DNA from: Isoetes taiwanensis
Lineage: Eukaryota; Streptophyta; Lycopodiopsida; Isoetales; Isoetaceae
DNA: 64,000 bases
Reading direction: 5' to 3'
NCBI GenBank assembly: GCA_021234155.1
Contig: JAJEKV010000071.1
Location: 5,268,483-5,332,482, forward strand
Below, piece after piece: positions 4,020 through 28,664 of the stretch (positions within the stretch are counted from its first letter, which is position 1; each line of letters starts with the position of its first letter). The notes under the pieces were generated by a model. It had not been told where the DNA came from. It was given only the letters and a program-made list of their open reading frames with translations, and did no database searches. Both the position numbers and the translations under genes were made by a program.

Positions 4020-6948
4020 AACCTCGTGCTTGGCCGCCGCCACTGCCGCCATAATGACACCCCCTTTTGAACCTTCTCCTACCAATGAACATGGCTCATA
4101 CCTGCGGTTTTGTGTATTACTGTAACCTCAGCGTCCACCAGGTCTTTGCCGAGCTTGGAGAGCAGCTTGCCGACGACTCAGAAAGGTCGACCTCCTTCTC
4201 AATGAGTTCAGCAGTTCGCCACCAGACATAGGGTGCCCTACCCTATCTTTCACTTGTTGGAGTGTTTCCTTCTAAAGTTGAATGCCTTGAGGGAGCCATA
4301 CACTTTGGTGGAACAACCCGACTAGATCTTGATGCTGGTCAAGTTTTACCCTCCTTCATGTGTGGAGGTTGCCGAAGATGAGGCCATCCGGGCAGAGGCC
4401 GAAAGGATCATGGGACTAGCCTGGGGTGATGATGCGCGGGAAATAAAGAGGGGAGATCCGAAGGCCTAGGGTAGGGAGTATACCTACCTGGGAGATGGCC
4501 AAGCCAAAATTGCTGGGGACCCATTTAACATCCCCCCTATCAATTTGACGATGCGTCTCAGAGTTTATTTGGGGCGACATACCTGACCATCTTACTCTGG
4601 ACATCATGATAGCCATCCAGCTGGATATGCAGGCTAGGCCGGATAGATATAAGGCTGAGTTTTTGAGAAGACTCACCACCCGTTGCCTCGCTGAGGTGGA
4701 AGAGTGTATGGCAACTGCTCACGCTGCACAACAAGAGCTTGAACGGGCGGTGCAACAACGAGCAGAGGAGCTTGCCAAGCAAAATGAAGATCAGCAGCAG
4801 ATCCAGCAAAATGAAGAGCAGAATACACAGCAGTGCCAACCAGACTAAAACCCTTGTTTTTAAACGGAGGCGGAAGTACACGGCAGGAAAGTCTAAAAGT
4901 GCCTATAAGGAGAAGCTGAAGACCGTGGGCGGTATTGGAAAGGACGCGAGTTATGGCCGCCGGCAGGACCGCGTTAATGCCGCTCGGCCTTGGCCCACAT
5001 TGCGGCGAAGACTATCTTCAAAGAACCTTTCACTGACAAGATCACCCACCTGAGGCACCAGTACGCACTTTGTGGCAAGCCTGGTCCATCGGGTCGTGGG
5101 CAGACGCGATCGGAACCTTATAAGGTATGTATGATATTTACATCAAATGGCACTGCGGCACCATTTCAAGTACTGTTGGTTGTTTTGGTTTGTGTCTTTA
5201 AATCAAATGGTGCAGTGGCGCCTTTTCATATCAAATGGCGCCGCAGTGCCATTTCACGTGCAGTAGTCTTGACTATAGGTTAGGATTCTGCCATTTCCCT
5301 TCAAATGACGATGTGGCACCATTTGTGGTTTCGTCGGCTTCAGTACATAATGAGTTTTAAATTTTACCTTTGAAATGGCGCTATGGCACCTGGCTCTAGC
5401 AGAAGTTACCATGCGTTGTAAGCAGCCCAAAGACTTCAACTGGTGGGTCTTCATGTCAAAGGATATCTTTCAACTGTGGGACCAATGGAAAACTGACAAG
5501 CTCAAGGACAACAAAGGGCAGCTTATAGTCTGTACCTGGGCCAAGGATAGTGACTACTTCAGTCAGACTTATCTGCGGTGCCTCAGAGGCATGCATTATG
5601 AGGATTGTAGGGTCTTATTCCAGGAGGTGCTTGATGAGAAGGTATACGCTAAGGTTTCCACTGATTACACAGGTGAGCAGAGGGCTAGAACTCTCAAGAC
5701 ATTAATGTTCTTGAAGAAGGAAATTTTTGAGTATGTCAAGGAAAACTTCCCAAGACAGTTCACCTCCTATGAAGACTTCTGTTCCACTGTGCCAGGCTTT
5801 GACGATGACAGCTTAAAAGCCATAGGAACACTGCATAACAAATGGGTCAACGATGGCATTTCCAAGGAGGGAATTTTTGGAAACATACCTCCAGCCTTGG
5901 CAAGTATCATAAGAAATAAGTTATGCAGAGGGATGATACTGAAGACTTCCGCTACGAGGTTGAGCTCACTGATAGCAGAAGGTAGATCACATGCACTCCT
6001 GTGCCAGCCTCTTTGATTGTTCTGGATACAGGGAGTCTAACTCCAATGTGGGACCAATCGACATTGTCCAAGTTCTTTGACACTGCCGTCAAGAACACGA
6101 CTGCTGAATCTTTTTGGACAGTTTGCTTCACACGTCCAGAACACGATTTTGTTGTCTCCTCAATGTTGAATAACCTGGACTCTAGATCCAGAGTTTATAT
6201 TGGCATGTCCGAGGATGGGGACAAGAATCCGGCACCAACAAAGGTGCTGGAACCGCATGCATTTGTCTATGCCACCAAGATCTAGTCTTCTGCTTTGACT
6301 GTTGTCGAAGAGATTGACCTCAAGTTTTCCTATGTCGATCACCCACAACATCTTCCACCAGTTTCTACTCATACTAAAGAAGAGGCAGATAGAGAGAGTG
6401 AGGCCATGATTGAAAAACTCTTTCGCAGCAGATTCAGGTACACTTGGCAAGGCTTATCCGGAGAAATCATAATGAGAAGTCAGCTGGGTCCTGCAACCTG
6501 TTCCTACCTCGTGCATAAGCTGGTACAGCCAGGTACAGGAGTGTTCGACTATTTCTCTTGTGGTGCTTTTGGCAGAGCTGGGTTGATTCATAAAAGGTTT
6601 TGCATCGTGTTCGAACTTGATCAGGTCAAACAACAGTGCCTGAAGAGGATTCTTGGTAGGCTAGACCGCATGCTCAATCCTATCCTGGCTGCAATCCTTG
6701 TATCCCAGCATGAAGGTGTTATTGAAGGTGGAGTTGAGGAACATGCAGAAACAAGCCAAGCACCTAAATCACCTGAGATTGCTTATGTTGACTACGAGGC
6801 TATTAAAGAAGCTAAGTTTGACCTTGACAATCTCGATGAAGCTGACTTCACTACCCATGCATTTGATTTTGATCCCATCAACGGTGCTGGGCCATCTAAT
6901 CCTATTGCTAGCACTGAGGAGTCTGATACAGCGGAGAAAAACTTGTAA
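4020..6948 (+). pseudogene. Spliced, decayed gene with methyltransferase-like C-terminus, carried in the gypsy element
   Basis: The N-terminal half (about 4090-5124) is coding in alternating frames. It contains a region reading VAEDEAIRAEAERIMGLAWG, a Gln/Glu-rich coiled coil (4606-4848) and a Lys/Arg-rich stretch. Introns are likely: a donor-type site at 5125 and an acceptor near 5402, though their phases do not match as drawn. The C-terminal half is nearly intact in two frames (5403-6016, then 6001-6948) and ends with a stop at 6948. It reads LIVLDTGS then WDQ, as in motif IV and its follow-on in beta-class amino DNA methyltransferases. About 190 residues later comes VFDYFSCGAFGRAGL then FCIVFELD, matching the motif I FxGxG and acidic-loop region. 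The order motif IV before motif I fits that class. DPPY has become DTGS and the glycines are poor, so catalysis is doubtful. An in-frame TAG at 6283 adds to the decay. It could instead be an unrelated domesticated protein. Confidence 0.45.
5125..5402 (+). repeat. Probable intron with five quasi-palindromic AAATGG...CCATTT motifs
   Basis: GTATGT follows TATAAG at 5125, and TCTAGCAG ends at 5402. Within lie five 22-bp near-palindromes starting at 5145, 5205, 5233, 5303 and 5373, each opening AAATGG or AAATGA and most closing CCATTT. The copy at 5233 is the reverse complement of that at 5145 with one mismatch, so the RNA could pair. Related ATGGCGCC motifs recur downstream at about 7108 and 7148. 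Confidence 0.6.
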
Positions 6949-8410: not shown

Positions 8411-8910
8411 GGAAGGCTACAATCACGCCATAGCATGTTTCAGCCTATCTGCAAAGTGTGCACAAGAGGGGCAGATTAATGGACTACCCTAGCCATTGTT
8501 CTAAGCCAGCCAACGCCATGTCATATCTCTGCCTGCTGTTATCTTGAGGCCTTGACTGTCAGTCGATCCCCTGGAGTCTGAGCCCCGGTAGAGCCCTTAT
8601 TCATGGTATATTGTTTATGTATCTTGTACTTGTATTTGCTATTTATATGGTGATGGATGAGACACCCTTCATGATGGTATATTACTTGTGTATGATTGCT
8701 ATATGCTAACATGTATGTACGCTTCCGCTGTATAGGACTCCCGTAGAGGACGTGGGACGATTGACACCTCTGTGTTCTTCACCCGGACACTTAGCCATCC
8801 AAAGTAGTCTGAGTTAGACGGAGGGCCTTTCCATAGTGATGGAGTTGCCACGGGAGGGGAATTCCCCTTATTTATACGATGGAAGCATCGTATAGATTCT
8901 GGGAGCGTCA
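8411..8910 (+). repeat. 3' LTR, 5' two thirds missing
   Basis: From GGAAGGCTACAATCACGCC onward this matches 2918-3400 of the 5' LTR, including the shared end GGGAGCGTCA. The join to integrase has GGAAGG near it on both sides, as expected for a microhomology-mediated or template-switch deletion. A short unrelated insert (CTGCAAAGTGTGCACAAG) lies near 8448-8475 relative to the 5' copy. Confidence 0.8.
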
Positions 8911-9931: not shown

Positions 9932-12463
9932 TCATGTTCGTTTTCCATGTGAAATTGGCAATCTCGAGAATGTGGCCTCCTTTTTTTTTTTTTGTACCGT
10001 GATTTGCTCAAGTGCTTGAGCCCTGTCTTCGTCTAATGACTCCAACATCATCAATCGATCTTCCACTGCTTTTGTTGCTGATAAGGACTGCTGACATATT
10101 AGCTTGAGAGCTGGAATTTCAATATGAACTGGAAGAGTGGCTTCGATCCCATAAACTAATTCAAATGGACTATGCCTTGTAGCTGTTTTTTGGGTAGTTC
10201 TAAATGCCAAAGAGCATTGGATAGTTGCAGATGCCATCAAGTTGGGATGCGTTGACTGTTGTTTTGAGGATGCTTTTCAAAACCTTGTTGGACGACTCTG
10301 CCTGCCCATTACCCTGGGGGTAGTAAGACGAACTCTTGGTGTGCCTGATTTTGAGTTGGCCTGGTCAATGCTTGCATGGTATCATTCATAAACTGGCTAC
10401 CTCTATCTGATAGAAGCTTTTGAGGCACTCCAAACCTGATACAAATGTGAGTAAATATGAAGGAAGTAGTACTTACAGCAGTCGCTTCCCTTAATGGTAC
10501 AGCTTCCACCCATTTGGTGAAGAGATCTGTTGCTGCAAGAATGTAAGCATGTTGCCCAGATGATGGTGGCTCTATCATCCCTATGAAGTCCAATCCCCAA
10601 CATTGAAACGGTCCAGGTGAAATGATTCCCTTCACTAACTCTGGCTGTAAGACCCTTTTTCCATGCAATTGGCATTTCTGACACCGCTTAATGCGCTCAT
10701 GGCAGTCTCTAAACATGGTAGACCAATAGTATCCTGTGCACAGTATTTTCTTTGCTGTGGTATCTGCTAAAAAGTGCCCTCCGCAGATGGCTTCGTGACA
10801 ATCCTGCATCACCAGCTCCTGTTCTTCTTCATCTAGGCATCTGAGATACATACCATTTCTATCCTTCTTGCATAAGACATCACCCAACATGGCAAACCCT
10901 GAACATTCTCCCTTGAATCTCCTAACTGCACTCTTGGTCAAACCCTCTAGCAGTATTTGATGTTGCAAAAACTTTTGCAGTGGTGCCATCCAAGTGCTTT
11001 CTGCCACTATGAAATTCAAATCTATCTTATGGACGCCCTCCTCTGCAGTGATATCGTGAGAAAAAAAGGCATAAGGCAAGTATAGGCTGGGATCTCGCTT
11101 ACCATCAAAAGTTTCCACTTGCAGGTCAAACCTTGATAGCTTGACTGCCCACCTGTAAAGTTTATCCTTTTTCTCTCCCTTATTGAACAAAATTTTGATA
11201 GGATTGTGTTTCATATAGACAATGACCTTTTGATTGTAGAACAAATAGCCATACTTGTCCATTAAAAGTATCAACCCTGCTGCATATTTCTCATAATTGG
11301 GATATTTTTCTTTTGTGCTGGTCCATTGTTTTCCAGAATAAGCAATTGCCCTTTTGCCTTGTATTAAAGCTATACCTATAGCTTTAACGGTGACCGTGAT
11401 ATAGACATGGAATTCTTCTTCAATATTTGGAGAACCTAAGGCCGGTTCCCGGCTAAGAATTGCAATAACACTTTCAAAACCTTCTTGACATTTTGGGGTC
11501 CAGAAAATGGAGACATATTTGCTCTTGCCTTCCTCTACGTGCCCTACTCGTGTGTGCAAAATTAGGAACATGCAACCTCAGGAAGCTCATCATACCTATC
11601 AAACGTTTCACTTCCTTCAGATTGCTTGGTGGTGAAAGCTTCTGGATAGCTGCTACCTTGTCGTCTGCCACCTAAATTCCCCCCGCTGAAACTTCGTGGC
11701 CAAGCAACAACCCCTTTTGGGCCCAAAAAATACATTTCTTAGGATTAAAACACACGCTAAAGTCCCTGCACAGAAGGCACAATTGCCTGATCATGTTGAG
11801 ATGATCCCCTCTTGTAGTTGCCAAACACAAATCGTCAAGAAATATTCTGAAATTCTTGGAAGGCATGGTTCTGAACACTGTGTCCATTGTCCTTTGGAAT
11901 GTCGAAGGTGCATTCATAAGCCCAAAGGGCATTCTTTTCATAGAAAATGTCCCCCAAGGCATAATAAAAGCTGTTTTCGGTTGGTCATCCACCTTCACAC
12001 TGATTTGATTAAAGCCCGAAAATCCATCCAGGAAAGAATAATACTAGTTACCTGCTACAGCATGCAAAACCTCTTCGAGAAAGAGTAACGGATAAAAATC
12101 CTTGAGGGTTGCCTTGTTGAGTTCTTGATAATCTATACAAATCCTTAAACTTCCATTTTTCTTGTTTACAGGTACAATGCATGAAACCCAAGTGGGATTT
12201 ATTATTTCTGAAATAAGGCCAGCAGCCAACGTCTTTTCTATTTCAGCTTGAATCAAGGGCAATAAGGTTGGGTTTATTCTTCTCATTTTTTGCACCATTG
12301 GAGTTACCCCTGGTTTCAATTTAATCTCAAACTCACAGACATGCGTTGGTATACCCTTCAGCTCATCATAATCCCAGGCGAATATGTCTGACATCTCTTG
12401 GAGTGTCTTTTGTAGAATTTGTAGGTCTCTCTGCTCGATGTTCATCCCAACTGCCACTTGTCT
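9932..12463 (-). pseudogene. Gypsy RT, RNase H and integrase
   Basis: The RT N-terminal part at 12,457-12,044 has the CIDYQELNKATLKDFYPL motif. The RT core at 11,998-11,672 has RMPFGLMNAPSTFQR and the catalytic box FLDD in place of the usual YxDD. The RT thumb (11,671-11,474) leads into a 420-codon frame (11,571-10,309) with RNase H (KEKYPNYEKYAAGLIL), the integrase zinc finger (HEAICGGH, then CQKCQLHG) and DDE core segments (GLDFIGMI, then LLSDRGSQF). The last piece (10,240-9,932) has the HSPFELVYGIEA motif common in gypsy integrases. Frames change at about 12,030, 11,570 and 10,300. The protein would reverse-transcribe and integrate the element; here it is a pseudogene. Confidence 0.9.
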
Positions 12464-12867: not shown

Positions 12868-13600
12868 CTACACATTTGTTTCTTTGCTAGTGTCTATCAC
12901 CAAAATAGGGTGCATGTGTCTTAAGGCATCTTCCGGAAGATCTTCCTCTGCTATGGACTGTTCTTTCAGGTAATCCAATAAGGTCTCTCTACAGACCAAA
13001 TCAGCCTCCATATTGTCTCCTCTAGGGATGTGTTGTATGCTCCACTCCCGGGGGGTGCACCTATTATATAGGGGGTATGCCACCTGCGTGCAAGGGGCCG
13101 ACAAAAACCCCCTTGTATACGTGTTTGAATTTTTTCAAAAACCCCCTTTCCAGCCACATACAGTGCCAAAATCACCCTAAAACCCCCAAAAAGTTACCCC
13201 TAGGTACGAGTAAATGTACGGTTTAAGGGGAAAACAAACCCTTTCGGGTCACTCATATGGTTTGTACGGCCAAAACTATGTGAACCCCCCTTGGCTCCAC
13301 TGTCCAAAATATTTCAATTTCTCCAATGCTAGATTTTTGTATCTGCACATATCCTCATGCTTGGCCTGAAATTCGCCTGTCAATTGCTTACAGACTAACA
13401 TGGAGTCTCCAAAAATATGCAGCTGCTTAAATCCCAAATCCATTGCTTGATTAAGACCCATGAGGAGAGCCTCATATTTTGCCACATTTGAAGTTACTGC
13501 AGGGACATTTTTTCCTGATCGGGCCACTATTCTTTTACATGAGTCCTTAAGAACTGCCCCAGCAGCTGCGACTTGAGCCCTTTTTGAAATCCCACCATCA
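12868..13600 (-). pseudogene. Additional RNase H domain, split by a MITE
   Basis: From 13,600 downward the frame reads FDGGISKRAQVAAAGAVL (first Asp), then KYEALLMGLNQAMDLG (Glu), then LHIFGDSMLVCKQLTGEF (Asp). Past the MITE it continues WSIQHIPRGDNMEADLV (last Asp). These are the four acidic positions of an archaeal/plant-type RNase H rather than the gypsy RNase H found later in the same polyprotein. The codons for FGQWS join directly to IQHIPRGD when the 247 bp insert is removed. The domain lies between protease and RT, not between RNase H and integrase. Confidence 0.8.
13047..13293. mobile_element. 247-bp MITE of the CCCGGGGGG-TIR family
   Basis: It begins CCCGGGGGGTGCAC and ends GTGAACCCCCCTTG, with an exact 8 bp target duplication GCTCCACT at 13,039-13,046 and 13,294-13,301. 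The first 55 bp resemble the right end of the 13 kb transposon at 27,780 (terminal 14-mer, then TATATAGGGGGTATGCC, then CTGCGTGC). There is no coding capacity. It probably moves with a transposase supplied by a relative of the large element. Confidence 0.9.
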
Positions 13601-14718
13601 AACTATAAACTGGCAGTTTTGTTGTGTTGAGATAATGGCCTCATGAGCACTTATTCTGAGACCCCCTAAGACGACAGTTTTGTTCTCATCATCAACCCAC
13701 AATGTCCCTATATTGTCTTCATGGTCAGTTGTTAAGGCTGCGTCGAGACTGTCTATTTCTCGAAGTCCCATGCCCCTAGATTGCAACAAGTCTTCTGCCT
13801 TCATGAACATGAGCTCTTCTCCACATGACGGGCCAATTCCTGCCCCTTCTCTATTGTATAACACTGTCCTATTTGTGCATCTGTTATAGTACAAGTCCCC
13901 TGAGACCAAACTGGCCTGGCATCGATTGCACGCATCCATTTCCTCCCCAAGATCAGGTCATACAAACTACCGCAGCTTTCTGAACCAAAGGACACCACCA
14001 CAAAGTCCGTGATGGCACGTACCCCTCCCACATTAATATTTATGTTAGTGATCATTCCTACGGGCTTAACTTTATGATTTACAAAAGACTTCAGCAATGA
14101 GTGTGGTAGGGGCGTCAATCTGCATCTTAAGTTTATGCATGATGTGTAAGGGCATAACATTCAGCCCTGAACCTCCGTCTAAAAATACATTTTTCAAGGC
14201 AATGTCATTAAGCACAGCTTCACACATGAAAATACCTGGGTCAACATCTGTTTTGGATGATACAAGGTCCGTGGCACAATATTCTTGATCTTCCTCCACA
14301 AGCTTGAAGAGTTGTTCCCTGTACTTTGGAGCTACTTTGAGTAATGTCACCAATCTATGTTGACCCTCGCATTCTTTAACAACTGCTCTATTTCACAATT
14401 ATTCAGTTTGGCTTTGTGAGTTGCAACAATGACTCTTGGAGATTCTTTTACATGTTGTGCCCTAGTTTGAACTACAAGGACTTGCTCTCCTTCTTCATCA
14501 ATTTCTACCAGGCAGAAAGGTGTGCTTGCCTCCTCCTTTTTGGCACTCTTATCTTGATCTTGCTTGGAGAGGTACTCCTTCACCAAGTATCTATCATCCA
14601 AGTGTCCAACTTCTTTACAAAATGAACACACTGGGAACTCTCTCCCAAAATGTCCTCGTTTTCCACATTTTTGACATGGTTTAGAAAAACATCTAGCTTC
14701 CGAATGTCCCATCCTATT
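13302..14718 (-). pseudogene. Gypsy protease region and gag zinc knuckles (C-terminal gag part)
   Basis: On the minus strand, from 14,718 down: MGHSEARC completes the first zinc knuckle, then CQKCGKRGHFG and CSFCKEVGHLDD give two more Cys/His boxes. A linker follows, then the protease with FLDGGSGLNVMP (14,353-14,072 frame), where DGGS replaces the usual DTGA/DSGA, as often in plant gypsy elements. The next frames (14,160-13,801 and 13,939-13,598) continue the polyprotein (FGSESCGSLYDLILGRKWM, a common post-protease motif). Frameshifts separate these pieces. Residues 13,600 downward belong to the extra RNase H. Confidence 0.8.
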
Positions 14719-14770
14719 CCCGGGGGGTTCACGTATGTATTCCGTAGAATACATGTGCGTGGACGGGAGA
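14719..14770 (+). repeat. Left TIR and subterminal box
   Basis: Terminal 14-mer CCCGGGGGGTTCAC, a small palindrome (TATTCCGTAGAATA) and the internal box ATGTGCGTG. A GTATAC motif lies at about 14,797, and GTATAC also recurs near the right end and in the MITE, a candidate transposase-binding element. Confidence 0.85.
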
Positions 14771-15118
14771 GGGGTTTTTTCGGAAAAAAAATAGTACGTA
14801 TACATGCGGGCGCTCATACGTTTTGGCGCCCAGATGTATGCATTTTCCACGGTCCGGGGATGGATTTCTTGGAGCTGCTGAGCCGTAAGAGTACGTTTTA
14901 GGGGTTTGAATCCGGCGCACATGCCGAAAAACGTTTTAGGATTTGGTGTTTCGGGAGGTAATGTTTTGAAGTTTTTTTCGTCCCCGCCACATAAAAAAAT
15001 CTAGCATGAGTTTAGTCATGAACGGATTAGGAAGTAGTTAGACGAAAGCAAAGATAAACCATTGTCGATGCATTTGATTTTAAAGTCCATTTGCATTGTT
15101 GATGCTTTTTTTTTTGCA

Positions 15119-16827
15119 GCCAAGCTTCCCCTTTCTCCATTTCGCCTCCATTCGTGAGATCCGTGGTGGAAATCTGGTTTTTAGAGGGTTTTTGCATCTA
15201 AGTAAGGTCTGTTAAGATCAGTTTTGTGCATGCATGTTGGTAACGCTATACATTCACAAGCAGCTCTCTAATATTACTTTGCTGTTTCTTTGCTTGTGTC
15301 AGGTTGAAGAAAATGGAAAGGACGATAGTTGTTAAGGTGAATGAAGGTTGTGGAATCGTGGCTGACCTTGGCCTCGTGATGGTGTCCCAAGAATGCACTT
15401 ACTTGGATGTCCGCAATGAAATAAGACAGGACGGGCTACTGGAGGATGAGAAAGAATTTGTAGTTCTTGGAGATAGGGAAGTGGCCTTCACGTCAAGGCA
15501 GGAGGTAAGGTTTAAGGTTTGTGGTGACGAGGTTACTATCAAGGTGGTTGGAGAGCCTGCACAAAAAAGGCAGAGGACTGTTGTTGAGAGCATTTCATCT
15601 CAAAATCTCCAATTTGAGATGGTAGACCAGACTGTCATAGAGGAGCAGACCAATGAAGAGGTAAATCATGATGATGAACTTGTTCTCGTTGAAGATACCG
15701 CCTTTTTAGATGATGTATCAGATTTGATTTTTTCAAAGAATAGGTTGCTATCCAAGTTAGCAACAAGGTTTGATGTTGCCAAATGGCAAGTTGCTTTGAA
15801 GAAGTTAAGTTCAAAGCTGCAGCGAAAGAATCGAAAAGACAGGTTTGAATTGTGTTCTTATGATGCCCATGGTAAACCAGTATTTGCTATTTGGTGTCTT
15901 GAATGTGAGAAACGTTATGGTAAAGGTGGAGATGACACCTTGTGTAACTTTGAACGCAGCCACTTGAAGTCCAAGGGTCATGCCGATAATTACGAGCGTA
16001 ACCTCAAGTGTGAGGAGAAGGGAGAGCAGGGTGTGGAGAAGGAGGATCAGCCTTGCAATGTTGAGGAGGAGCTGGACATTTGCAAGGAGAATCAAACTCT
16101 AGTAGAAAGTACATTAGCTGCTGCCATTGCAAAGTTTCAAGAAGAAACTAGAATTTTTGATGTTGTGTTCAAGCTTTATGAGAGCAGCGTTGGTGGATAT
16201 GCTAAACTTGATGACATTCGTGTTGTTTGTGCCATGTGTGAAAGGCTTCTCGAACTGTTTCCAAGAACTGGATGTCTTAATGGCCACATGAAAGATCATA
16301 TTCTATCTAAGAGACACGTGCATCTTTGTCATGAATAGTGTAAGGAGTCAAGTGACCAAGCAAAGAAGAGGTGGCGGGGTAGAAGAAATGGGCTGAAGCG
16401 GACCATGACAAGGAAAATTGCATTCTTTTTTTGCAAGAGGTAACCTCTATTTTATTTGTTAGAAGTAGTGTTCACGTTTTACGTTTTAGCTGCTATAATG
16501 TTGAATAATCTCAGCTGATTCGGACTGATTTTGACATGAGCAGCAAATCCTCCGTGCCCTCCTCCAAGCTCGAGCAGCCAAGCTTCATCAAGTAACAGTT
16601 CACGTGAGTACTCTTAGTGGCTTCATAAGTGGTTTGTATTTTAAGTTTGTAGGGTATCTAGGGTTTCATTGTCGTATTTCGGTAACAGAAACGTCCTTGG
16701 CTCTACTATGCTGGGGCTATTGGCAGAACAAATATAGGTATGGAGATAAAGTTAAGGATTTAAGACCCTTTCTGCATGAGCTGAAAGAAGGGACACATTG
16801 GTATTGTGAACCTGCATTGCAGCATAC
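15119..16827 (+). pseudogene. Long zinc-finger gene of the 13-kb transposon, 5' part
   Basis: A probable untranslated exon follows TTTTTTTTTGCAG (15,119), and a second acceptor at 15,302 precedes the ATG at 15,313. The main exon is open to 16,335. Residues 1-85 look like a compact alpha/beta fold rich in hydrophobic strands, possibly beta-grasp. A KKRQR-like basic patch and an acidic linker follow. Next come two Cys2-His2-like modules: WCLECEKR with HLKSKGH (about 15,894-15,985), and CAMCERLL with HMKDHILSKRH (about 16,230-16,316). An in-frame TAG at 16,336 is followed by 35 open, strongly basic codons, so it is probably a nonsense mutation. A Ser/Pro-rich exon (16,544-16,603) and an exon from 16,689 (CWGYWQNKYRYGDKVKDLR) lead to the CACTA insertion inside the codons for LQH-T. 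No known family was recognised. It may be a transposase partner or a captured nuclear gene. Confidence 0.6.
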
Positions 16828-16844
16828 CACACTAACCCCAAAAT

Positions 16845-17275
16845 CTGCTCTATGTGTAGTTTTTTGCTGTCTTTTTTGCAAAAAAACAACACTTAAACAC
16901 CACCCATAGTAATGTTCCGAAAATGCTAGAAAACACGTGTAGTTTTTTAGTGTTGTTTTTTAGACATAAAAGACGTGTAGTTTTTATGCGTGGTTTTTGG
17001 AAAAAAAAAACAACACATAGTTTTTATGTGTAGTTTTCACCGTGTAAAACAACCTGTAAATTCTATGTGTGGTTTAGAGAAAAACAACGTTTGTTTTTCA
17101 GTAAAAACAACATGGTTTCAAGTGTGGTATTCACCTATAAACAATGCATGGTCTTCATGGTCTTTTTGTGTTGTTTTTTTTTAGTGTTGTTTCTAGTGTA
17201 ACTAGACATTGTTTATTTTCAATATAAGTCACGTTGTTTTCGAGAGTATGAATTTAAGTAGTGCTTGTTTCTAAG
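16845..17275 (+). repeat. Left subterminal repeat array of the CACTA-like element
   Basis: Over a dozen imperfect copies of GTGTAGTTTTT and GTGTTGTTTTT (or the reverse complement AAAAACNACAC) occur in 430 bp, on both strands. They are candidate binding sites for the element's DNA-binding protein. The small open frames here are by-products. Confidence 0.75.
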
Positions 17276-17279
17276 TTCT

Positions 17280-18680
17280 ATTATTACTGAGCCATTGGAT
17301 ACCAATAAAATACATGCCATAAAACCATTGAAAAACACAAATAGATATTTTCAATGTATCTGATATTACAATCTATTTCGTCAAATGTTAATAACAGCCC
17401 AACAAAACTAGAAAACAAAACCATTTTCCAATTCTTGTATTTTGGAGATAATTCTTGTATTTCAACTGGATATTTGGTGTCCAGATAACAAAATCGTTCT
17501 TGTATGCTCCAATTCTTGTATTTTGGAGACAAGATGAAGCCAACAAATTCGAATCTCTTAGCCTTTGGGCATGTGATCTGACGGATACTTACTCCATTTC
17601 CACTTCCTGAAAGCTCCAGTTATGCAATAGTCACACCTGCAGCAGAACCACAAGTAATCAAGCTTGCATATCAGTGGAAAATGACTTGTAGACGTAATTA
17701 TTTTCGTGAATCCTTCATTAAGTCCTTTAGCAGAAATAAAGAAATACCTAGATAGCTATGCCCATTGAACTTGCCTTCTGGCTTCTGTACAGAGTTGGCG
17801 TGCTGTTGAAGGTACCCAATCCCTAACCATGGCAAGAACTAACAGATAATCCTTTAGGAATCAGAGGCCGGATCTTGAGCAACAATATCGCTATTACAAA
17901 AGGCCCTAAGACGCCCTGCAACATGCAGCAACTAAGCTGCTCTTCCAACCACGCACTTTAACCAGAGATCTCTGCAGAGCAACTGGCGACCGTCGCATCC
18001 GCCCTAAGTGCTTGAAACCCTAAATATTTCTTCCTATTCTCCTGTGCAGATAAGAATATGGAAGTAGAGGTTTAGATCTTTCTATCATGGTCGAATTCGA
18101 AATACTGTTGAACACAAACCTCACACGTAAAGCAAGCCCCTCTAAGCGGATCGAACCACCTTTAAAGGCGGATCATACATCCGTGTTAAGAGAGCTTTGT
18201 CTTTGAAAATATTTTTAGAAGCCGGATCATGCGCATTCCGGATCATACAACCGCCTTTGAAAATAGAGATCAGAAGCGAGAAAGGAGGGAAAAACTCAAT
18301 GCAGGGATCAAATCCGGGCTGTTAATTTTGGGCCAATCGGATGACAGGACATGGATCATCATCTAAACCAGTCATCTCAATAAACCAGTCATCTCAGCCG
18401 TTGAATGTTGAATGGAGGTAATTATTTACCAATTTCAAATGCTTGATAAAACAACCTCCACCCGGATGCTAATTTTAAACTAGGTTAAATGCTCTAATTT
18501 TGTGGGGCATCTATAAAGGAGGTTAATTTTGTTCAACCTCCTTCACTAGATGGAATGCATGATGTCGGTTTAGCATTTGAGAAAATTCTAGCCTCCTAAA
18601 TGTTTATTCTACAAGGTAGCCAGGCATTGTTATAAACAAAAATAGAAAAAGCCTTCACAAACTGAACTAATTTACACAAC
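17280..18680. other. CACTA interior without recognisable gene
   Basis: It contains small local repeats (AATTCTTGTATTTTGGAGA twice near 17,430-17,530; CGGATCATAC-type repeats at 18,165-18,250). No protein signature was found on either strand. Confidence 0.55.
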
Positions 18681-18689
18681 CTTTAATAT

Positions 18690-18950
18690 TACGGGTTGTT
18701 ATACCTAACATAACGGAATGTCCTTTATGTTAGGGTAACATAACATAAAGATCTCACTTCACACTCGTCGTTAGATTAAAAATTAATATAACAGAAACCG
18801 TTAAATATTGCCTCACACAGACTATCACGCCGTTAGGTTAAAACTTAATATAAGGAAAATTGTTAAATATTACTTCACGTGGATTGTCATGCCGTTATGT
18901 TAAGAGTTAACATAACGGAAACCGTTAAATATTTCTTCACACTGAAAAAA
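18690..18950. repeat. Tandem repeat, about 60-bp units with AACGG...CCGTTA
   Basis: Three to four imperfect units carry CCGTTA(G/T)GTTAA, TTAATATAA and GGAAACCGTTAAATATT, followed by CTTCAC. Each unit has facing AACGG and CCGTTA cores, which are MYB-type target cores in plants; that link is inference. Confidence 0.65.
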
Positions 18951-19689
18951 ACCACCTTTCTTTAAATAAAAGGGCATAGGAACCAAATTGCATACCTCAT
19001 ATTTAGTCAAACGCTCTTGTAACTTCTAATGTTTCTCAGTATTGCACCGATTTGATATGTCGTGCACCAAAGAGTCGGATTCTGTGCTCCATATTCTAGA
19101 TTGCCCAGAGGGGGGTATTTGGCGAAATTGAGGTGCACTAGATTTCACTTATACAAATAGGGCTTCTGCATGTGATTCAATGCAGGATATGTGTGCAGTG
19201 GGGTCACCCCACCTCCATATCCTATTAGGTTCTAACTAGCTAAGAGCAATCGAGTTTCTATTAGAACAATAGTGAGGTGGCCAAGATGAGCAGTGAGGTG
19301 GCAAAAATGAGTTATGATGTGGAAAAATATAGATGGATGGAAAAATGAAGAATTTGCTTTAGAAGAAGCATCATTCAATATGGTGACATGGCATTTTTTG
19401 GATGATGTGCCATGTCATATGATGGTTAAGCATTTTAGGCACTTTTGGTGGAATATGACTAGACCTTTCTAGACCAAAAAAGTAGAGATGCCAGTGAATC
19501 AGATTGTCGTGAAACTCAGTCCCATGGGGTAATATCAGTAAGTATGAACTTTATGGAACAATCGATTTGCTGAAAACATGGTTAATGACATGGAAAAGTT
19601 GGCATCATGATAGGCAAAGGATATTTTTTGCAATCTTCACGAAATGAGTGAGGAAATTTGAAATTTGCAAAAGTAGACATGCACATGAT

Positions 19690-20260
19690 GATGTGGCACA
19701 TCAGTGGCGACAAGTCATGCCAAGTAAGCAAGGCCAACTTTTAACTAGGCCAAAAATAAATAAAAAAATGTGCAACTTTGGTTTTCCATGGGTGATGTGG
19801 CAAAATTTTGGTGACATGGCAAGATCTGCATGATTTGGACATGACAATGACTAGGCATTTTTGCAACAAATGGACAAAGCAAGTATTTTTGGTATAAGGA
19901 ATTTGGCAAAGAGAACATCAAGAACTTAGAGCAATTTTTGTTACCAAAAGGGTGATTATTTTACTTGTTCTTGACTTATTGACCAATATGCCACCTATGC
20001 CACCTGGGCACTCCAAGTGGTGACATGGCATGCCAAGTAAGCAAGGTCAAGTTTTGACTAGGCCAAAAATGAAAAGATGTCCATCTTTGGTCTTTTCATT
20101 GGGTGATGTTGGCAAATTTTGGGTGACATGGCTAGACGATGGTGACATGGATATGATGACTAGGACTTTATGCAAGAAATATGATAACCTTTGAAATTTT
20201 TGGTAGAGGAGTTTGGCAAGGGATAGAATAGAGGGATCTTGAAGAACTTAAAGCGCTAAC
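19690..20260. repeat. Direct duplication of about 280 bp
   Basis: The segments 19,690-19,970 and 20,010-20,260 share ordered blocks: CATGCCAAGTAAGCAAGG, ACTAGGCCAAAAAT, GGGTGATGT, GGTGACATGGC and AAGAACTTA. The second copy is also the outer part of the foldback's left arm. Confidence 0.65.
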
Positions 20261-22425
20261 ACCTTCCCCAAATCGAACCAGGCCAGGACTTTGCGCGGCT
20301 TCCTCACCAGAGGCGAGAGGCCAGACTCCAAAAGATGGACCTCAGAAAGGTTATCGAGGAGGCGACCTTTTTGTGTTGCAGCTCCTGCGGGAGGGCAAAT
20401 GCCAATGCCCTCTTCCCCTCCCTCCCCCCCTCCTCTTGGGAGCTCAATTTTCCTATCCGACCGTTGAATCTGCCATTCAAGTAACCTGCTTCGAGCAGGC
20501 TCAAAAAAATCCAAGATCCACGAAGCGTCTTGCGGGTTAACCGCGTAGAAAACCAAATGTTTTGTCATTCGGGCAGTACAAAGGCTCCGGAATGGAGATT
20601 CGACTTCGCCATGCCATCCGGAACGGCGAAATTACCCTAGGGACCAAGTTACACGGTCATTTTTGAGTGCGAAAGAAACACAAACCCTCTACATGGCGAT
20701 TGCGGCCACCTCTTAGACCAATTGACTACGAACATGTTAGACATGAGCTACTTTGGCGCTTCTTGGAAAAGGGGTAGTCTTCTGCCCACGAAACTTGGTC
20801 TCCAGGGTAATGTCAATGTTTTGAGTCTATTGGCAGAGTCAGTTCACAGTTCCGGAGTGGAAAAGTTGCCCTACCGTGGCCAGGGTTCTTTGGGAGAGGA
20901 CTTTTGGGGCAAACTGCTTCCGGAAGGTTTTAAGGTTCTGTCCTTAAGGTTCTTCTGGCATCAACACCCTCCCTCTACGTGGATCCTGGTCGAATCTGAG
21001 TAGGATACGGCCTCCGAAATGTAAACCCTGTGTGTTGCTAGGTTATTGAAAAGTTTGCGTTATGGAGGTCGAGTTTTAGTCGGTTGCACTTGGGACATGG
21101 TCGAGAAGCTGAAGCAAAAAATATGAAGCAATAGGAACTGAGGGAATGGGGTTTGAAGTTATCCTCCTCCCAGTGTGGCAATTAGAATTCAAGAGCGCCT
21201 TTTGCAGTAGCAAAATTGTTTGGGATCATTCAGGATGGCCAATAGATCCAAACTCTGTTATTTCAGTTGCCATGGCTCCGCATGTGCGTTTAGCAAAGGT
21301 GCACCTAGCTATCCAAGAAAATGACTACGTTTGGCCACCAAACGTAAACCCCAATGTGTTGCTAGGTTATTGTAAGGTTTACGTTTCGGAGGCCAAAACA
21401 TGGTCGTTTTCTTGGATAGCTAGGTGCACCTTTGTTAAATGCACATTCGGAGCCATGGCAACTGAAATAACAGAGTTTGGATCTATTGGCCATTCCGAAT
21501 GATCCCAAACAATTTTGCTACCGCAAAAGGCGCTCTTGACTTCTAATTGCTTCATTGGGAGGAAGCTAAACCCAAATCCCATTCCCTCAGTTCCTATTGC
21601 TTCATATTTTCAGCTTCAGCTTCAGCTTCTCGACCATGTCCCAAGTGCAACCGACTAAAACTCGACCTCCATAACGCCAAACTTTTCAATAACCTAGCAA
21701 CACTGGGGTTTACATTTTGGAGGTCGTATCCTACCGGATTCGACCAGGATCTTGCACAATGTCATCACGTAGAGGGAGGGTGTTGATGCCAGAATACGGA
21801 CCCTTAAAACCTTTCGGAAGCAGTTTGCCCCAAAAGTCCTCTCCTGCAGGTCCCTGGCCACGGACGGGCAACTCTCCCACTCCAAAACTATGAACTGACT
21901 CTGTTAATGGACTCAAAATGTCGACTTTACCATGGGGACCAAGTTTCGTGGGCAGAAGACCACCCCTTCTCCAAGAAGCACCAAAGTAGCTCATGTCCAA
22001 CACGTTCGTAGTCAATTGGCCTAGGAGGTGGCTGTGGAACACCGCTATGTAGAGGGTTCATGTTTCTTTCGTTGCCCAAAATGACCATGTAACTTGGTCC
22101 CTGGAGTAATTTCACCATTCCGGACGACATGACGAAGTCGAATCTCCATTCCAGAGTCTTTGTACTGCCCGAACGACAAAACACTTGGTTTTCTACGCAA
22201 CCAAACTCCTCTACATAAATTTCAAAGGTTATCATATTTCTTGCATAAAGTCCTAGTCATCATATCCATGTCACCATATCATCTAGCCATGTCATCTAAA
22301 ATTTGCCAACATCACCTAATGAAAAGACCAAAGATGGACATCTTTTCATTTTTGGCCTAGTCAAAACTTGACCTTGCTTATTTGGCATGCCATGTCACCA
22401 CTTCGGGTGCCTAGGTGGCATGCTT
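19990..22425. repeat. 2.4-kb foldback (long inverted repeat)
   Basis: The left arm (about 19,990-21,345) and right arm (about 21,383-22,425) are inverted copies, with a short centre containing GTGTTGCTAGGTTATTG. Mirror markers include TGCACCTAGCTATCCAAG (21,301) against CTTGGATAGCTAGGTGCA (21,412), and matching translated blocks MSYFGASW on opposite strands. The right arm lacks about 300 bp present in the left (20,214-20,520). As the direct copy near 19,920 retains the start of that part, the right arm probably lost it. The open frames in the arms (for example 20,722-21,003) resemble no known protein. A transcript would form a very long hairpin. Confidence 0.85.
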
Positions 22426-23530
22426 GAGCCTAGGTGGCATGCCTGAGCCGCCTTGGCATGTTGGAGCCTAGATGGCATGTTGGAGCTTGCGTGTCATGTT
22501 GGAGTCACCTTGGCATGTTTAAGCCTAGGTGGCATGTTTGAGCCAACTTGGCATGTTGGAGTCCACGTGGCATGTTGGAGCCTAGGTGGCATGTTGGTGG
22601 CATGTTTGAGCCACCTTGGCATGTTTGAGCCTAGGTGGAATGTTGGAGCCACCTTGGCATGTTTGAGCCACCTTGGCATGTTTGAGCCTAGGTGGCATGT
22701 TGGAGCCCCCGTGGCATGTTTGAGCCACCTTGGCATATTGGAGCCTAGATGGCATGTCTGAGCCATCTTGGCATGATGGAGCCTAGGTGGAATGTTGGAG
22801 CCACCTTGGCATGTTGGAGCCTAGGTGGCATGTTTGAGACACCTTGTCATGTTGGAGCCTAGGTGGCATGTTGGAGACGGCGTGGCATGTTTGAGACCCC
22901 TTGTCATGTTGGAGCCTAGGTGGCATGTTGGAACCCACGGGCATGTTGGAGCCCACCTTGGCATGTTTGAGCCACCTTGGCATGTTGGAGCCTAGGTGGC
23001 ATGTTGGAGCCTTGGTGGCATGTTTGAGCCACCTTGGCATGTTCGAGCCTAGGTGGAATGTTGGAGCCCGGTGATGGCCTGTTCGAGCCACCTTGGCAGC
23101 GTTGGAGCCCTAGGGTGGCACGTTGGAGCCCTTTGGCATGTTTGAGCCATGGAGCGTGATGGCATATTTGAGCCACCTTGGCATGTTTGAGCCTAGGTGG
23201 CATGTTGGAGCCACCCACTGCATGGGAGGCTAGATGGCATGTTGGAGCCACCTTGGCATGTTGGAGCCTAGGTGGCATGTTGGAGACCACATGACATGTT
23301 TGTGCCACCTTGGCATGTTGGAGCCTAGGTTGCATGCTGGAGCCCACCTTGGCATGCTTGAGCCACCTTGGCATGTTGGAGCCTAGGTGGCATGTTTGAG
23401 CCACCTTGGCATATTCGAGCCTAGGTGGAATGTTGGAGCCACCTTGGCATGTTGGAGCCTAGGTGGCATGTTGGAGGCCAGCGTGGTATGTTTGAGCCAC
23501 CTTGGCATGTTGGAGCCCGGATGGCATGTT
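22415..23530. repeat. Minisatellite of 19-bp units in a 38-bp higher-order repeat
   Basis: Nearly 60 units alternate between GCCTAGGTGGCATGTTGGA and GCCACCTTGGCATGTTTGA. Small indels break the phase near 22,930-23,230. The unit length is not a multiple of three, so several frames stay open. These spurious frames encode runs like HLGSNMPRWLKHA and are not proteins. The array abuts the foldback's right arm, whose outer edge has one degenerate unit. Confidence 0.9.
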
Positions 23531-23879
23531 GAAAGGTATACTTCCTCTCTCTCTCTTTGTTACTTTAGAGAGAGAAATTGAATTTAGAGCAGTCTTTCAA
23601 TTAACTTTTGGGTCTTCAACCTTTGACTTCAAGTGTTCAAGATGCTTAGGTGATCAAATGTCCTTCAAGAAATGCCTATATGATGCCAAACTATCCATTT
23701 TTGGTTCTTCATATCAACTTCTACAAGTTGCGATGGATGTCTTCAATTTTCACGCTCTACAAGCTCACACAACACATGTATGAAGTCAAATGCTAGTGAA
23801 GTGTGTCAAACATATATAACTTTTGTATGCTGCCATTTTGTGGCAGTAATGGCATGTGGACAACTTGATCATACATGAA
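23531..23879. other. CACTA interior, no gene seen
   Basis: A CT-rich stretch (CTCTCTCTCTTTG) and ordinary AT-rich sequence occur between the minisatellite and the right subterminal repeats. Confidence 0.5.
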
Positions 23880-24175
23880 ATATTAGAAAACCTTAAAAAA
23901 CCACACCTCAAAAAAAAACTACCTTAAAAAACAACACCTGAAAAAAAACATCCCTTCAAAAAACCATACCGCCTGAGAAAACAACACATCCTTAAAAAAG
24001 AGACTACACCTCCTTTAGAAACCACCCATTCTTTAAAAAAAAAAACTACGTATCCTTAAGAAAAACTACAGCAGATCCTTGGAAAACCACACCCCCATAT
24101 ACGTGTAGGTTTTTTTCAAATCTTCAAAAAGACAATGCGTATTTTGTTTTTACTGTTGTTTTCAGCCGTGGACCA
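23880..24175 (+). repeat. Right subterminal repeat array of the CACTA-like element
   Basis: Repeated AAAAAACCACACC, AAAAAACAACACC and AAAAAACTAC motifs are the reverse complement of those at the left end. They run up to the terminal GGGGTTGTAGTG. Confidence 0.75.
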
Positions 24176-24193
24176 AATGTTGGGGTTGTAGTG

Positions 24194-26157
24194 TACATTT
24201 GTAGTCGGGCAGGGTTTAATAGAGATTAGTGGCTCGTTTAGGCATAAGAAATGCAAGAGGGTCAGTCTTAAAGGTGAACCCTTTGAAAATTATCAATGTT
24301 CTTTATGTGCTGCTATTCCGAAAGAGAGGGATTTTTACATGAGAGTGCATAGACAGACTGATGACAAGGTGGCAAGGGGATTTAGAACCACAAAATTATG
24401 TATTAGATCAGATTACTTGAATGCAATTGAGATGAAGAAGATGGCCAGGTCTGCAGTTCATGAGGTAAGGAAGTTACATAAGGAATTAATGTTTTCCAAA
24501 ATGAGAGTTACTGCATTGTCCATGAAAGAAATGTCGCTAAGAGGGAGTCTGGAGGAGTCAATGAACAGGGTATCCTTCTTCTTTAGGTGAGCTGGAATCC
24601 TGTTTGCTACTTTCAATTTGGTATTATCTTTAAAACTTTAGGTGCATAACAGGCTTTGGAGGCTGTGGTTGACGAACCACAACACGCATTCGTTGAGTAA
24701 GAACTTCATTAGTCGGGAAACCTTTATAGACGTGCAATTGTCATGCCATTTTTTTGTCTTTGCTAATAAAGTATTTTAGTTCGAATTAGGGCATTTAGAG
24801 TTGCCCTTACGAAGGCACCCGGATTAGGCATTATGTGAGAACTTCTTCTCTAAAATTCGGTGGCATGGTGCGAATGCTAAAGAGCCTATGGCCAGGGCAG
24901 ACTTGTTGGAGAGTGCCTCTGCCTCAATCATATTTCGTGAAGTTTCAAGCAGCCACTACCCTCCTGTTTCCTGCAGCACATGCTAAGCAAGAACACATTT
25001 GGGAAGAGTTAGAAAAGAAGGTAGATACCAATGGGGATGTGCTCACCTGTAACCTTGCAGATTACAGTAGCGTGGATACGGATGACAAGATTATCGAGGC
25101 CTTAAAAGGAAGGGCTTCTTTGCCGCACAAGCATTGTGTACAAGCGTTGGCATTACAATTGAGGAGAATGATGGCTGGTTTAGTGAGCCATGGAAGGCCG
25201 AAGATTGGTTTCATAGTAGTCGTGTGGTAGACCTGAGCTCTACCACATTGGGAGATGAGACCGATGCCACGGAAGAGAATATGGAGATTGAAGGTGAAGA
25301 TCCAAGGAACGAGGTAGTTAGTGAGGATGATGTGGCCAGGTCTGAATTACGACATGTGTTTGACGAAGTGTTAGATGAATGCGAGAGGAGGAAGCCATCT
25401 CATGTTTCTTGGCATGTTGTTATGGAAGGTAAGAAAATCTTCAAGTCAACTATAGTGAGTCATTTGAATGGGAATCCGTGGCTATCAAAGGACAGGTTGA
25501 CGAGGGTTAAGACTATGGTATATTCTATTGAAGAAAGTAATGTTGATGCACAAACTCTGCTCGGCATTGGGACAGATTGTGCAGTGTACTTCGAAGAACC
25601 AGTGGAATCAGCGGTGGCACCACAAACCAGACAAGCTTCAGCGAGAAAAAGGAACAAATCTGCTGCAATTCATAAGGTTTGGTATCTTGGTAGGGTACTT
25701 AGCATGAGGAGGAAATCTGGCAGTGCATGGAAAGAGAGTAGGGAGCCCGTGGACTTAGTTAAACGCCCGTCTTTTGAAGTTCAATTAAATCTGGCATATT
25801 ACAGTAAACATTGCAGCAAGGACGGCAAGTCCACTTGGTTTTACTTATGATCCGGCCGATAATCGACTTATAGACCTCGAAGTCTATCATATCTCTTGCA
25901 TCTTTAAGATATGAACCTGCCAAAAACATTTACCATCTGCATGATAATGACAGAGTACAGCTGAATAAGTTTGACCGTGAACAGAACATTGGTAGGGTAA
26001 TATTAAATTAGACGTCTTCAAATGGTTGAATTCTGCTACTAACTGTCTCTTCTCTTTCATTTTTTTTTTGTAGGTGACAAGGGCAAGTAGAAGGTCTAGG
26101 GAGTTCATAAGGTTCAGGCAGATATTTGTGAACTACTTTATCAATGATCATTTATGA
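24194..26157 (+). pseudogene. Long zinc-finger gene of the 13-kb transposon, 3' part
   Basis: This continues the exon broken by the CACTA element: SFRHKKCKR, then a possible zinc pair CSLC, and a helical Lys/Glu-rich stretch to 24,569. The GTATCC donor and the acceptor at 24,641 keep the frame (NR to VHNRLWRLW). Frames then change several times to 25,133. From about 25,134 to 25,850 a 238-codon frame is intact: an acidic region, then a conserved-looking block (HVVMEGKKIFKSTIVSHLN, LSKDRLTRVKTMVY) and WYLGRVLSMRRK. A one-base shift at about 25,848 continues into YDPADNRLIDLE. A last intron (donor after GGTAGG, acceptor 26,073) leads to the final exon, rich in Arg/Ser, ending at 26,157. This is a nuclear-type protein I do not recognise; the C-terminal module could bind chromatin, but that is speculation. 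Confidence 0.6.
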
Positions 26158-26159
26158 TT

Positions 26160-26939
26160 AAAGCTACCATTTCAACAGTTTAAGTTTAAGAGCGTTTTTA
26201 CGCTTTGTATAAATCTCGTGCATGTTCTATTTGCTTTGCTTTACTTAATGCATTGTCTGTTTTGGAAACTGTGGATCTTGTTTAAACTTTACTTTGAATG
26301 CAATAAGCGATTGGCTACTTGGTTGCTTGTGGAACTAGTTAGTTAGGTGTGCTTTAAGCCTTTCAGATTCCATTACTCCATGATTTATTTCTGCAGCATT
26401 TACAGAAGCATAATAAAATGCTTCCAAAACAGCAGATGCTGTTACCCTACACTCTACTTTAAGGGCATGACGTGAAGACAATAAGACATAATCAAAATCA
26501 TACTTTAGAAACAACAAAACATACCTTTGTTTGAAGTCCGATTTGGTTAAGAACATTACATAAAAGAAACATATTAAGAGACAAAGTAAAACACAAGAAC
26601 AATGTAAAGCGCTTCATATTCATATTATAATAACATACTTTACAAAAAGGAAGGTTCACACTGCGCATGGCGGTTTACATCCCCTGTTTTTCATGGCCAT
26701 TTACAAAACAAAGCGGTCCTAAACGGATCGGATCGGAGCTTTACAAAAAAAAAAAGAGTCGGGGAGCTTTACAAAACAAGTTCGGGGATATTTCGTTATG
26801 GCAAATAAAAAACCTAAGCTATTATTATAGGCGTCCCGGAGGCATAACCGGGGCACAACTTAAGCGGATATCGAATAAGCGGGCGGAACGGAGGTCGACT
26901 AACGAGCGGGGCTTCAACCGATTGCCGGGAGGTGGCATC
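26160..26939. other. Region between the two convergent transposon genes
   Basis: It probably holds the two 3' untranslated regions. A-rich tracts (26,744-26,756) and GC-rich 26,820-26,940 are present, without further coding. The plus frame at 26,667-27,101 overlaps the small minus-strand gene and is a shadow. Confidence 0.5.
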
Positions 26940-27169
26940 CTAAGCAAACACATACTGATTGTTCCCTCTTGCACGGATTTTCATTTCCAAAAGCCGCTCA
27001 TCTGCAGGAGTCACCCGATCAACCCATTGCTGAAGGAGCTCCATGATCTTGCATGTGCACCACTTCCATGTAGGAAAATTTCGCGACAACCTTCAGCTTA
27101 GTGCCCTTGGGCTCTTCCTCAGGCGCGGCCTTCAGTGGGCACCCGGGCGGTGGTCTTAATCCGCGCCAT
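26940..27169 (-). pseudogene. Small gene with histone H3-tail-like N-terminus
   Basis: From the ATG at 27,169 the first residues after Met are ARIKTTARVPTEGRA. The universal H3 tail starts ARTKQTARKSTGGKA; nine of fifteen positions agree (A, R, K, T, A, R, T, G, A). A frameshift near 27,120 leads to EEEPKGTKLKVVAKFSYMEV, and a second near 27,045 leads to MELLQQWVDRVTPADERLLE, ending with a stop at 26,940. The reconstructed length is near 76-80 residues, with no histone fold after the tail. It sits just inside the right end of the 13 kb transposon, transcribed inward towards the long gene. It might mimic H3 to bind chromatin readers. Chance or capture of an H3 5' exon are alternatives. The two breaks show this copy is dead. 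Confidence 0.5.
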
Positions 27170-27766
27170 TGTCGAATGTGGGAGAGGAATAGGCGGATCG
27201 GGAGAAGGAGTGTCGGATCGGGAGAAGGAGAGGAATAGGCGCTAGAGGGAATGAGCTTCGATCGGGTTATGCCATTGGCGGCAGCTGCATGGCGAAGTTC
27301 ACCATAATGACGTCCTTAAAAGACGTGCCCGAAAATAAAATCATGACCAATAATTAATTTAAAGTCATTATTCAATAATCAATAATGAATTTCGTTATGA
27401 TGTCATCCTAAAATCGATTTAATTAAAATAAATAAAATTCCAGGCGTATTTCTTTCTTATTTTCTGGAGTGACCATTGAACTCAAATGGCGCCACGAAGA
27501 ACCCTAAATACTGATTGGATGCAACATTTGCGGACTGGATGTAAAAATACGGTAGAGGGTAGGATACATGAATGAAATTCGGACGTAAAAATAAGGTTGA
27601 GGGTAGGGCAAGAAGTGCTTAGACTGGGTGTAAAAGTATGGAATCGGGTATGATTCTTCGACAGTATGGGACCGTATACATAGGGGTTTCTATGGAGGGC
27701 CAGCTGTATACAGAGGGGTTTCTCCTGACTTGATGCACGCACATGCCATATGCCCCTTATATAGAG
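27170..27766. other. Right subterminal region of the 13-kb transposon
   Basis: It includes a purine-rich repeat (CGGATCGGGAGAAGGAG twice, 27,196-27,235) and two copies of GTATACANAGGGGTTTCT (27,674 and 27,708), plausible transposase-binding repeats. An AAATGGCGCC motif occurs at 27,484. It probably contains the promoter of the small gene on the minus strand. Confidence 0.5.
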
Positions 27767-27780
27767 GTGAACCCCCCGGG
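27767..27780 (-). repeat. Right TIR of the 13-kb transposon
   Basis: GTGAACCCCCCGGG is the exact inverted copy of the left end, followed directly by target duplicate ATCCTATT. Confidence 0.92.
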
Positions 27781-27788
27781 ATCCTATT

Positions 27789-28664
27789 GCAGTAAGCGCA
27801 TACTAACCCGGAATTTGAAGAAGAAATATGCTGCTGACCTTTAACTGCTTCTGCCAGCTGTTTGGAGACCTCCATAAGACTTTGCATACTCAATTCCAGC
27901 TTACTTGTGGCCTTGGCAACTTTAGCTTTTATTTCTTCTTCAATTTTGGTCTTCTTATCTTTAGCAAAGGCTGCTAAACATGGTTCGACCTCCTGGTCCC
28001 ATTCGCGATGGTTGTAGTCAGCTGCATACCCTGGTCCTTCCTCCTCAGGCAAAGAATGCTGCAATTTTGATAATTCTATGGCCTTAGAGAAGGCTTTATA
28101 GACTGAGTCCAATAGCCCCAAACTTTGCAGCTTGAACATCTTCCTGTATAACCTAGAATGTGGTTTCAGACCAGCCACGAAAAAACACACCATATGATCC
28201 GTAGGTGTCTTTACTTTCTGCTCCTGGCATCTCAGAAGATAAGAGTTAAATCTTTCCACAAAAAGATGTATGCTCTCGCCCCTCCTAATGGTCATAGTGC
28301 AAATTTCTTGTACCAACCCATTCTTGGTGCTCACGGTACCAAATCTTTCCAAGAAATTGTGCACCAATACCTCCCATGTGGTTATTTGATAGCTCTTTTG
28401 ATAAAGAAACCATCCCTTGGCATCTCCCTTCATTGCAAGACCAAAAACTGAAATCTTGTCTCCTTTCTTCTTACCAAAATCTGCATAATATTCCTTAAAG
28501 TGGCTCAAAAACTCAGTAGGATTTTTGGATCCGTCAAATGTAGGTACTGGAGTAGGCAGGTTTACTTCAATCTGGGGAAGAGGGGATCGAATGTATCTTA
28601 GCTACTGCTGTGCTACCTTCTCCTGCGTCAGCTTCTCCTGTAGTTTTGCTTTTGGGTGACATGC
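27789..28664 (-). pseudogene. Gypsy gag, N-terminal and central part
   Basis: A Met at 28,662 (MSPKSKTTGEADAGE) begins a frame that shifts near 28,590 into PTFDGSKNPTEFLSHFKEYY and continues as a 240-codon open frame. It shows the retrotransposon gag fold signature (GDAKGWFLYQ, FLERFG, then ESIHLFVERFNSYLLRC). A Lys/Glu-rich linker and the first half of a zinc knuckle (CAYCNR) end at the transposon insertion. The rest of the knuckle is at 14,710. The gag would coat the RNA in virus-like particles. Confidence 0.85.

Follow-up and report, generated by a model that had tools for sequence, protein, structure and literature searches.

The question raised by the 64,000-nucleotide stretch of Isoetes taiwanensis contig JAJEKV010000071.1 analyzed here (the window) is what kind of transposon interrupts a gag gene between positions 14711 and 27788, and which type of enzyme could have moved it. 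The initial annotation had described a 13-kb DNA transposon of unassigned superfamily, inserted in a gag zinc knuckle. In the present analysis the insertion is interpreted, with high confidence, as a non-autonomous plant transposon of the cut-and-paste kind that carries an internal deletion and has full-length relatives coding for a transposase of the P type. The inverted ends and the exact 8-bp duplication were confirmed by direct reading on both sides, and comprise the following features.

14711–14718, no strand: target duplication, left copy ATCCTATT (direct reading)
14719–27780, plus strand: whole element, 13,062 bp including a nested insertion (5,693 bp once the nested element and one TAC are subtracted)
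14719–14732, plus strand: left inverted end CCCGGGGGGTTCAC (14/14 complementary to 27767–27780)
27767–27780, minus strand: right inverted end (direct reading)
27781–27788, no strand: target duplication, right copy (direct reading)
14347–14718, minus strand: 3' portion of the interrupted gag, bearing CCHC knuckles (zf-CCHC, 6.4e-5)
27781–28601, minus strand: interrupted gag, 5' part (Retrotrans_gag, 1.1e-9)

Joining the flanks with a single copy of the duplication restored the gag frame (...LVCAYCNRMGHSEARCFSKPCQKCGKRGHF...) with an intact CCHC knuckle, and Pfam matched both halves, in agreement with the proposed insertion site. The insertion as such is ordinary.

The end motif (up to 3 mismatches) occurred six times in the window, compared with 2.0 ± 1.6 in shuffled sequences, of which 3 in 100 reached six. 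In a scan for end pairs (up to 4 mismatches, 60–20,000 bp apart), which drew on 17 left-like and 15 right-like ends, only two pairs had flanking 8-mers that differed by no more than one base, and both were perfect; the expectation over all 255 pairings is about 0.005 perfect matches. One pair bounds the large element, and the other bounds a second copy of 247 bp. End-like motifs at 47560 and 47806 had no partner with a duplication, and were regarded as chance occurrences.

13039–13301, minus strand: non-autonomous family member (miniature inverted-repeat transposable element, MITE), 247 bp at 13047–13293, given here with its duplication (end-pair scan, subterminal similarity)

The MITE is flanked by the perfect duplication GCTCCACT at 13039–13046 and 13294–13301. 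Beyond the 14 terminal bases, its left end resembled the right end of the large element, and its right end the left end of the large element. Both of these comparisons scored above 300 of 300 mononucleotide shuffles, and the four other end comparisons were unremarkable. Because of this crosswise similarity, the two insertions are assigned to one family in opposite orientation. The family is real, and produces 8-bp duplications.

The annotated length of 13 kb holds for the DNA between the ends, but not for a single element, since a nested CACTA-type insertion accounts for 7.4 kb. Once this insertion is set aside, the remainder is largely occupied by a broken transposase gene.

15313–16439, plus strand: N-terminal coding exon with Cys/His (zinc-finger-like) motifs and a putative exon end (P0004, 23% identity, E 5e-7)
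16691–16827, plus strand: coding stretch up to the nested insertion, including TAC at 16825–16827 (P0040, 57% over 16697–16822; frame of the empty site)
16828–24193, no strand: nested CACTA-type element, 7,366 bp, ends CACACTAACCCC / CACTACAACCCC (TAC at 16825–16827 and 24194–24196)
24197–24586, plus strand: coding stretch after the nested insertion (FRHKKCKRVS...SLEESMNR-VSFFFR; P0003 149–263 against 24225–24569, 43%)
24653–24857, plus strand: coding stretch of the catalytic glutamate (P0003 674–752 against 24618–24857, 47%; 685–726 against 24642–24776, 55%)
24853–25844, plus strand: C-terminal coding stretch in two frames, including the equivalent of the BAH-like domain of the relatives (P0003 831–1048 against 25107–25808, 39%)

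The N-terminal exon was matched by 12 homologues over 15544–16431 (tblastn) and contains an in-frame TAG at 16336–16338, past which the homology extends. When the flanks of the nested element were joined, the frame became continuous; its alignment to P0040, at 55% identity over 168 residues, had no gap, and it was likewise ungapped in 9 of the 12 best homologue rows listed. Residues ~264–679 (P0003 numbering) are missing from the window gene, so that both catalytic aspartates are lost and the glutamate region is retained. The deletion junction, at ~24567, is in frame (ESMNR-VSFFFR, then a putative 66-bp intron at 24587–24652, then LWRLW). Further damage consists of a stop at 24777–24779, within the glutamate stretch, and of frame changes near 25107 and after ~25808, some of which may be introns; P0052 matched 24853–25107 in a different frame from the P0003 match (tblastn).

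These results explain why no DDE core had been visible in the initial annotation: the part with both aspartates is deleted. The observation holds for the window copy, but not for the full-length relatives. Similarly, the annotated multi-zinc-finger gene does exist, but it is homologous to the transposase of the relatives rather than cargo from elsewhere. The small H3-like gene was not upheld. On the minus strand, MARIKTTARVPTEGRA runs down from 27169 to a stop, and an overlapping open reading frame (ORF) at 27022–27315 had no Pfam match; MARIKTTARVPTEGRA itself resembles the start of a histone H3 tail.

Single window exons gave nothing useful in Pfam, and with the N-terminal exon alone as query, none of 1941 candidates was a homologue at 0.01. 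NCBIfam gave nothing relevant, and a BFVD fold search nothing at ≤0.001. When the exons were combined into a composite, this matched P0003 (E 9.4e-62), P0004 (1.4e-52) and the fern protein P0005 (1.8e-14), which were the only three matches at ≤0.1. A profile of the cores of these three proteins gave 143 homologues, of which 120 were listed. Among those listed, 97 matched the window (tblastn, 0.01), exclusively on the plus strand within 15544–25972, and 17 carried organism names: the fern Adiantum nelumboides (6) and the liverworts Riccia (two species, 9) and Calypogeia fissa (2). In a quick tree of 55 rows, where the window row covers 47% of the columns, the window gene grouped with P0040 and P0033 (99), and with P0003, P0012 and four Adiantum rows at 93, a position that would suggest, though not prove, a fern host. 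The relatives share the near-invariant motifs EDET, SDGDSRRR and DRQNW, and carry a BAH-like C-terminal domain. In P0111 and P0113 a Tudor domain of the PTM/DIR17 type is added at the C-terminus. This hints that chromatin-reader-like modules may have been swapped between branches.

Other contigs were also searched by sequence pattern. None of 37 matches in viral contigs was a relative, and of 135 matches in genome contigs one was, namely L001 (NZBA01000032.1, 6,169 bp), which is filed as a metagenome-assembled genome of Planctomycetota and is probably eukaryotic DNA in a bacterial bin. In L001 the relative's gene lies between perfect 46-bp inverted repeats (58–103 and 6026–6071).

The superfamily was addressed by fold comparison. 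The predicted fold of the relatives matched the P element transposase (PDB 6p5a, 6pe2) over 408 of 442 residues at 15% identity, far above Transib, RAG1 and Hermes. The relatives have a predicted RNase H fold with a conserved D-D-E triad, D389, D509 and E746, in the order D-D-[D]xxH-E, the DxxH-E spacing of the P signature (as given in the relevant part of PMC8230255), and the [C/D](2)H that follows the last core strand in that signature. A helical insertion (557–729, within the aligned range 270–781) follows the last core strand and precedes the glutamate helix, the same place as in the Drosophila P element. It is a candidate counterpart of the GTP-binding insertion domain; the Pfam TNP-like_GBD value was only 0.13, in L001. 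The 8-bp duplication characteristic of the P superfamily was present and perfect at both window insertions. The superfamily therefore need not stay unassigned, as the transposase of the full-length relatives is predicted to be P-element-like in fold; a known type of transposase in intact relatives is an outcome that the initial annotation had named as refuting its reading.

Other transposon types that yield 8-bp duplications were considered. A hAT element, a type common in plants, would combine such duplications with short inverted ends and zinc-finger N-termini; the duplication length and short ends do fit (hAT features in part of PMC10741241), and Hermes also has an RNase H core with an insertion domain. 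Given the far better fold match to the P element, a hAT origin is considered highly improbable. An origin as a KDZ (Zisupton) element would bring in a type known from green algae, with 8-bp duplications and a long multi-exon gene with Cys-rich parts. Sections of two papers record that Zisupton yields 8-bp duplications (PMC12730594) and that Zisupton and Kyakuja are present in Chlamydomonas (PMC8226300). However, no KDZ transposase was matched in Pfam among 47 relatives at 0.1 (KDZ being compared by profile, not by structure), and the best fold match was the P element, in a comparison set that held no KDZ structure. This origin, too, appears most improbable.

Several results weigh against the P-type assignment. 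The values for TNP-like_RNaseH_N (2.6e-4, 2.2e-3 and 0.087) and TNP-like_GBD were all below the Pfam cut-offs; the best TNP-like score was 21.7 bits (P0020) against a cut-off of 24.6, and 3 of 47 relatives matched at 0.1. Searches of PDB sequences with P0003, a 3-row profile and a 47-row profile gave no transposase. No THAP domain was matched in Pfam (47 relatives at 0.1, window exon at 1), and for this reason the window family was not filed under THAP9 or the THAP-bearing P family. Identity to the P element was 15% and 11% over two structural alignments, from models that are not independent, their alignments overlapping (A3 contains every one of the 34 rows of A4). Finally, L001 has no 8-bp duplication and its end letters differ from those of the window element; its flanks may be mis-assembled.

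The low identity, the missing THAP match, the family's own near-invariant motifs and the sub-threshold sequence models would also suit a separate new superfamily, with a P-type fold and a P-like way of working but outside the P superfamily proper. Against this stand the triad order and DxxH-E spacing, the margin of the P match over Transib, RAG1 and Hermes, and the shared 8-bp duplication, and such a separate status is judged unlikely. A different doubt concerns whether the transposase-like gene is captured cargo, the element having been moved by another, unseen transposase. The window copy is broken and unable to move itself, the L001 ends differ as noted, and the 64-kb window holds no intact copy with CCCGGGGGGTTCAC-type ends, the large element and the MITE being the sole paired copies, a point that weighs against the P-type assignment as well. 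However, the gene takes up the greater part of the 5.7 kb that the ends enclose, its L001 relative likewise fills the space between perfect inverted repeats, and P-type enzymes produce the 8-bp duplications observed here. In the window, the position of the gene ties it to these ends, and capture as cargo is very unlikely.

The P-type assignment may be set beside known systems. The Drosophila P element has ends of 31 bp, compared with 14 bp in the window family; the relatives also differ from it in carrying other Cys/His motifs and the BAH-like domain, and in occurring in ferns and liverworts. THAP9 and the zebrafish P-like elements are alike in having 8-bp duplications, internally deleted copies and inverted ends that are short (13 bp in zebrafish), but they bear a THAP domain and their hosts are animals; the passages of PMC7776569 used here also ascribe to P elements a GTP-binding insertion domain along with inverted ends and 8-bp duplications, and state that plants have no THAP domains. 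On the fold model, the lineage of the window element is a THAP-less P-type family of ferns and liverworts, hence the interest. Some green algae have P-type elements on record. Excerpts from the open-licence literature (subscription papers and Repbase being outside the scope) contained no report of P-type elements in land plants and no description of the window family. P was not among the types named in the portions of plant transposon lists covered, one of which counts six types without naming them (PMC9033089, in part). The family is thus undescribed in the weaker sense that no literature report was found and no Pfam model lay above its cut-off over the core of the relatives.

In the proposed mechanism, an intact relative would supply in trans a P-type enzyme with an RNase H fold, in which a helical insertion domain interrupts the D-D-E triad, as it does in the transposase of the Drosophila P element. 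The enzyme would attach to the CCCGGGGGGTTCAC ends and to repeats close to them, possibly with some use of GTP, cut out the element and join it to the target at points 8 bp apart, which would account for the 8-bp duplication. The window copy has lost the gene part with both catalytic aspartates, gained a stop and frame breaks, entered the gag gene and itself been entered by the CACTA-type element, no order being implied among these events. P elements often yield internally deleted copies, some of which make repressors. A broader proposal, made tentatively and with somewhat less than even confidence, is that land plants harbor a large, unnamed, THAP-less P-type lineage of sufficient depth to rank as a sister superfamily of P. 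Other zinc fingers would hold the DNA, and the BAH-like domain (in one branch also a Tudor-like domain) would read histone marks, so that insertion or escape from silencing would follow chromatin state.

If true, the presence of such a P-type lineage in ferns and liverworts would extend the known range of a classic transposon and suggest that a P-type core can work without THAP. It would also represent a natural fusion of a transposase with a chromatin-reader-like domain, making targeting testable, and would provide an annotation profile for genes of 'hypothetical proteins' in fern and liverwort genomes.

The nested element is of the CACTA type by its 3-bp duplication, its ends and the subterminal repeats near both ends. 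CACACTAACCCC and CACTACAACCCC agree in 15 of 20 bases, a pairing seen in none of 500 shuffles. Motifs resembling GTGTAGTTTTT (up to 2 mismatches) occurred 12 and 14 times in the terminal 600 bp, and not at all in one 600-bp stretch from the middle. It resembles CACTA/EnSpm elements in the 3-bp duplication, CAC ends and subterminal repeats, but differs in its left end (CACACTA) and in that Pfam had no match at 0.01, and no transposase, in the seven ORFs scanned within it. The element may be non-autonomous. It also contains a large broken palindrome (19703–22421; arm pairs of 22–237 nt, 86–100% complementary), possibly a fold-back or silencing-hairpin structure, and an adjoining tandem array at 22409–23517 with periods of 57 bp and 19 bp and GCCTAGGTGGCATGTTGGA-like units.

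In the window as a whole, neither tRNAs nor Rfam matches at gathering scores were found. An ORF at 10309–11571 (minus), which shares its strand with the interrupted gag, contains the RNase H domain of a reverse transcriptase and an integrase domain. Direct repeats at 2969–3376 and 8480–8886 (88–90% identical, 5.5 kb apart) may be the long terminal repeats of another element. Another broken palindrome, ~2.9 kb long, lies at 35646–38574 (arm pairs 35646–35822/38398–38574 and others, 86–92%). An ORF of 507 amino acids at 39536–41059 (minus), with a TPM_phosphatase domain (5.2e-17), is probably a host gene.
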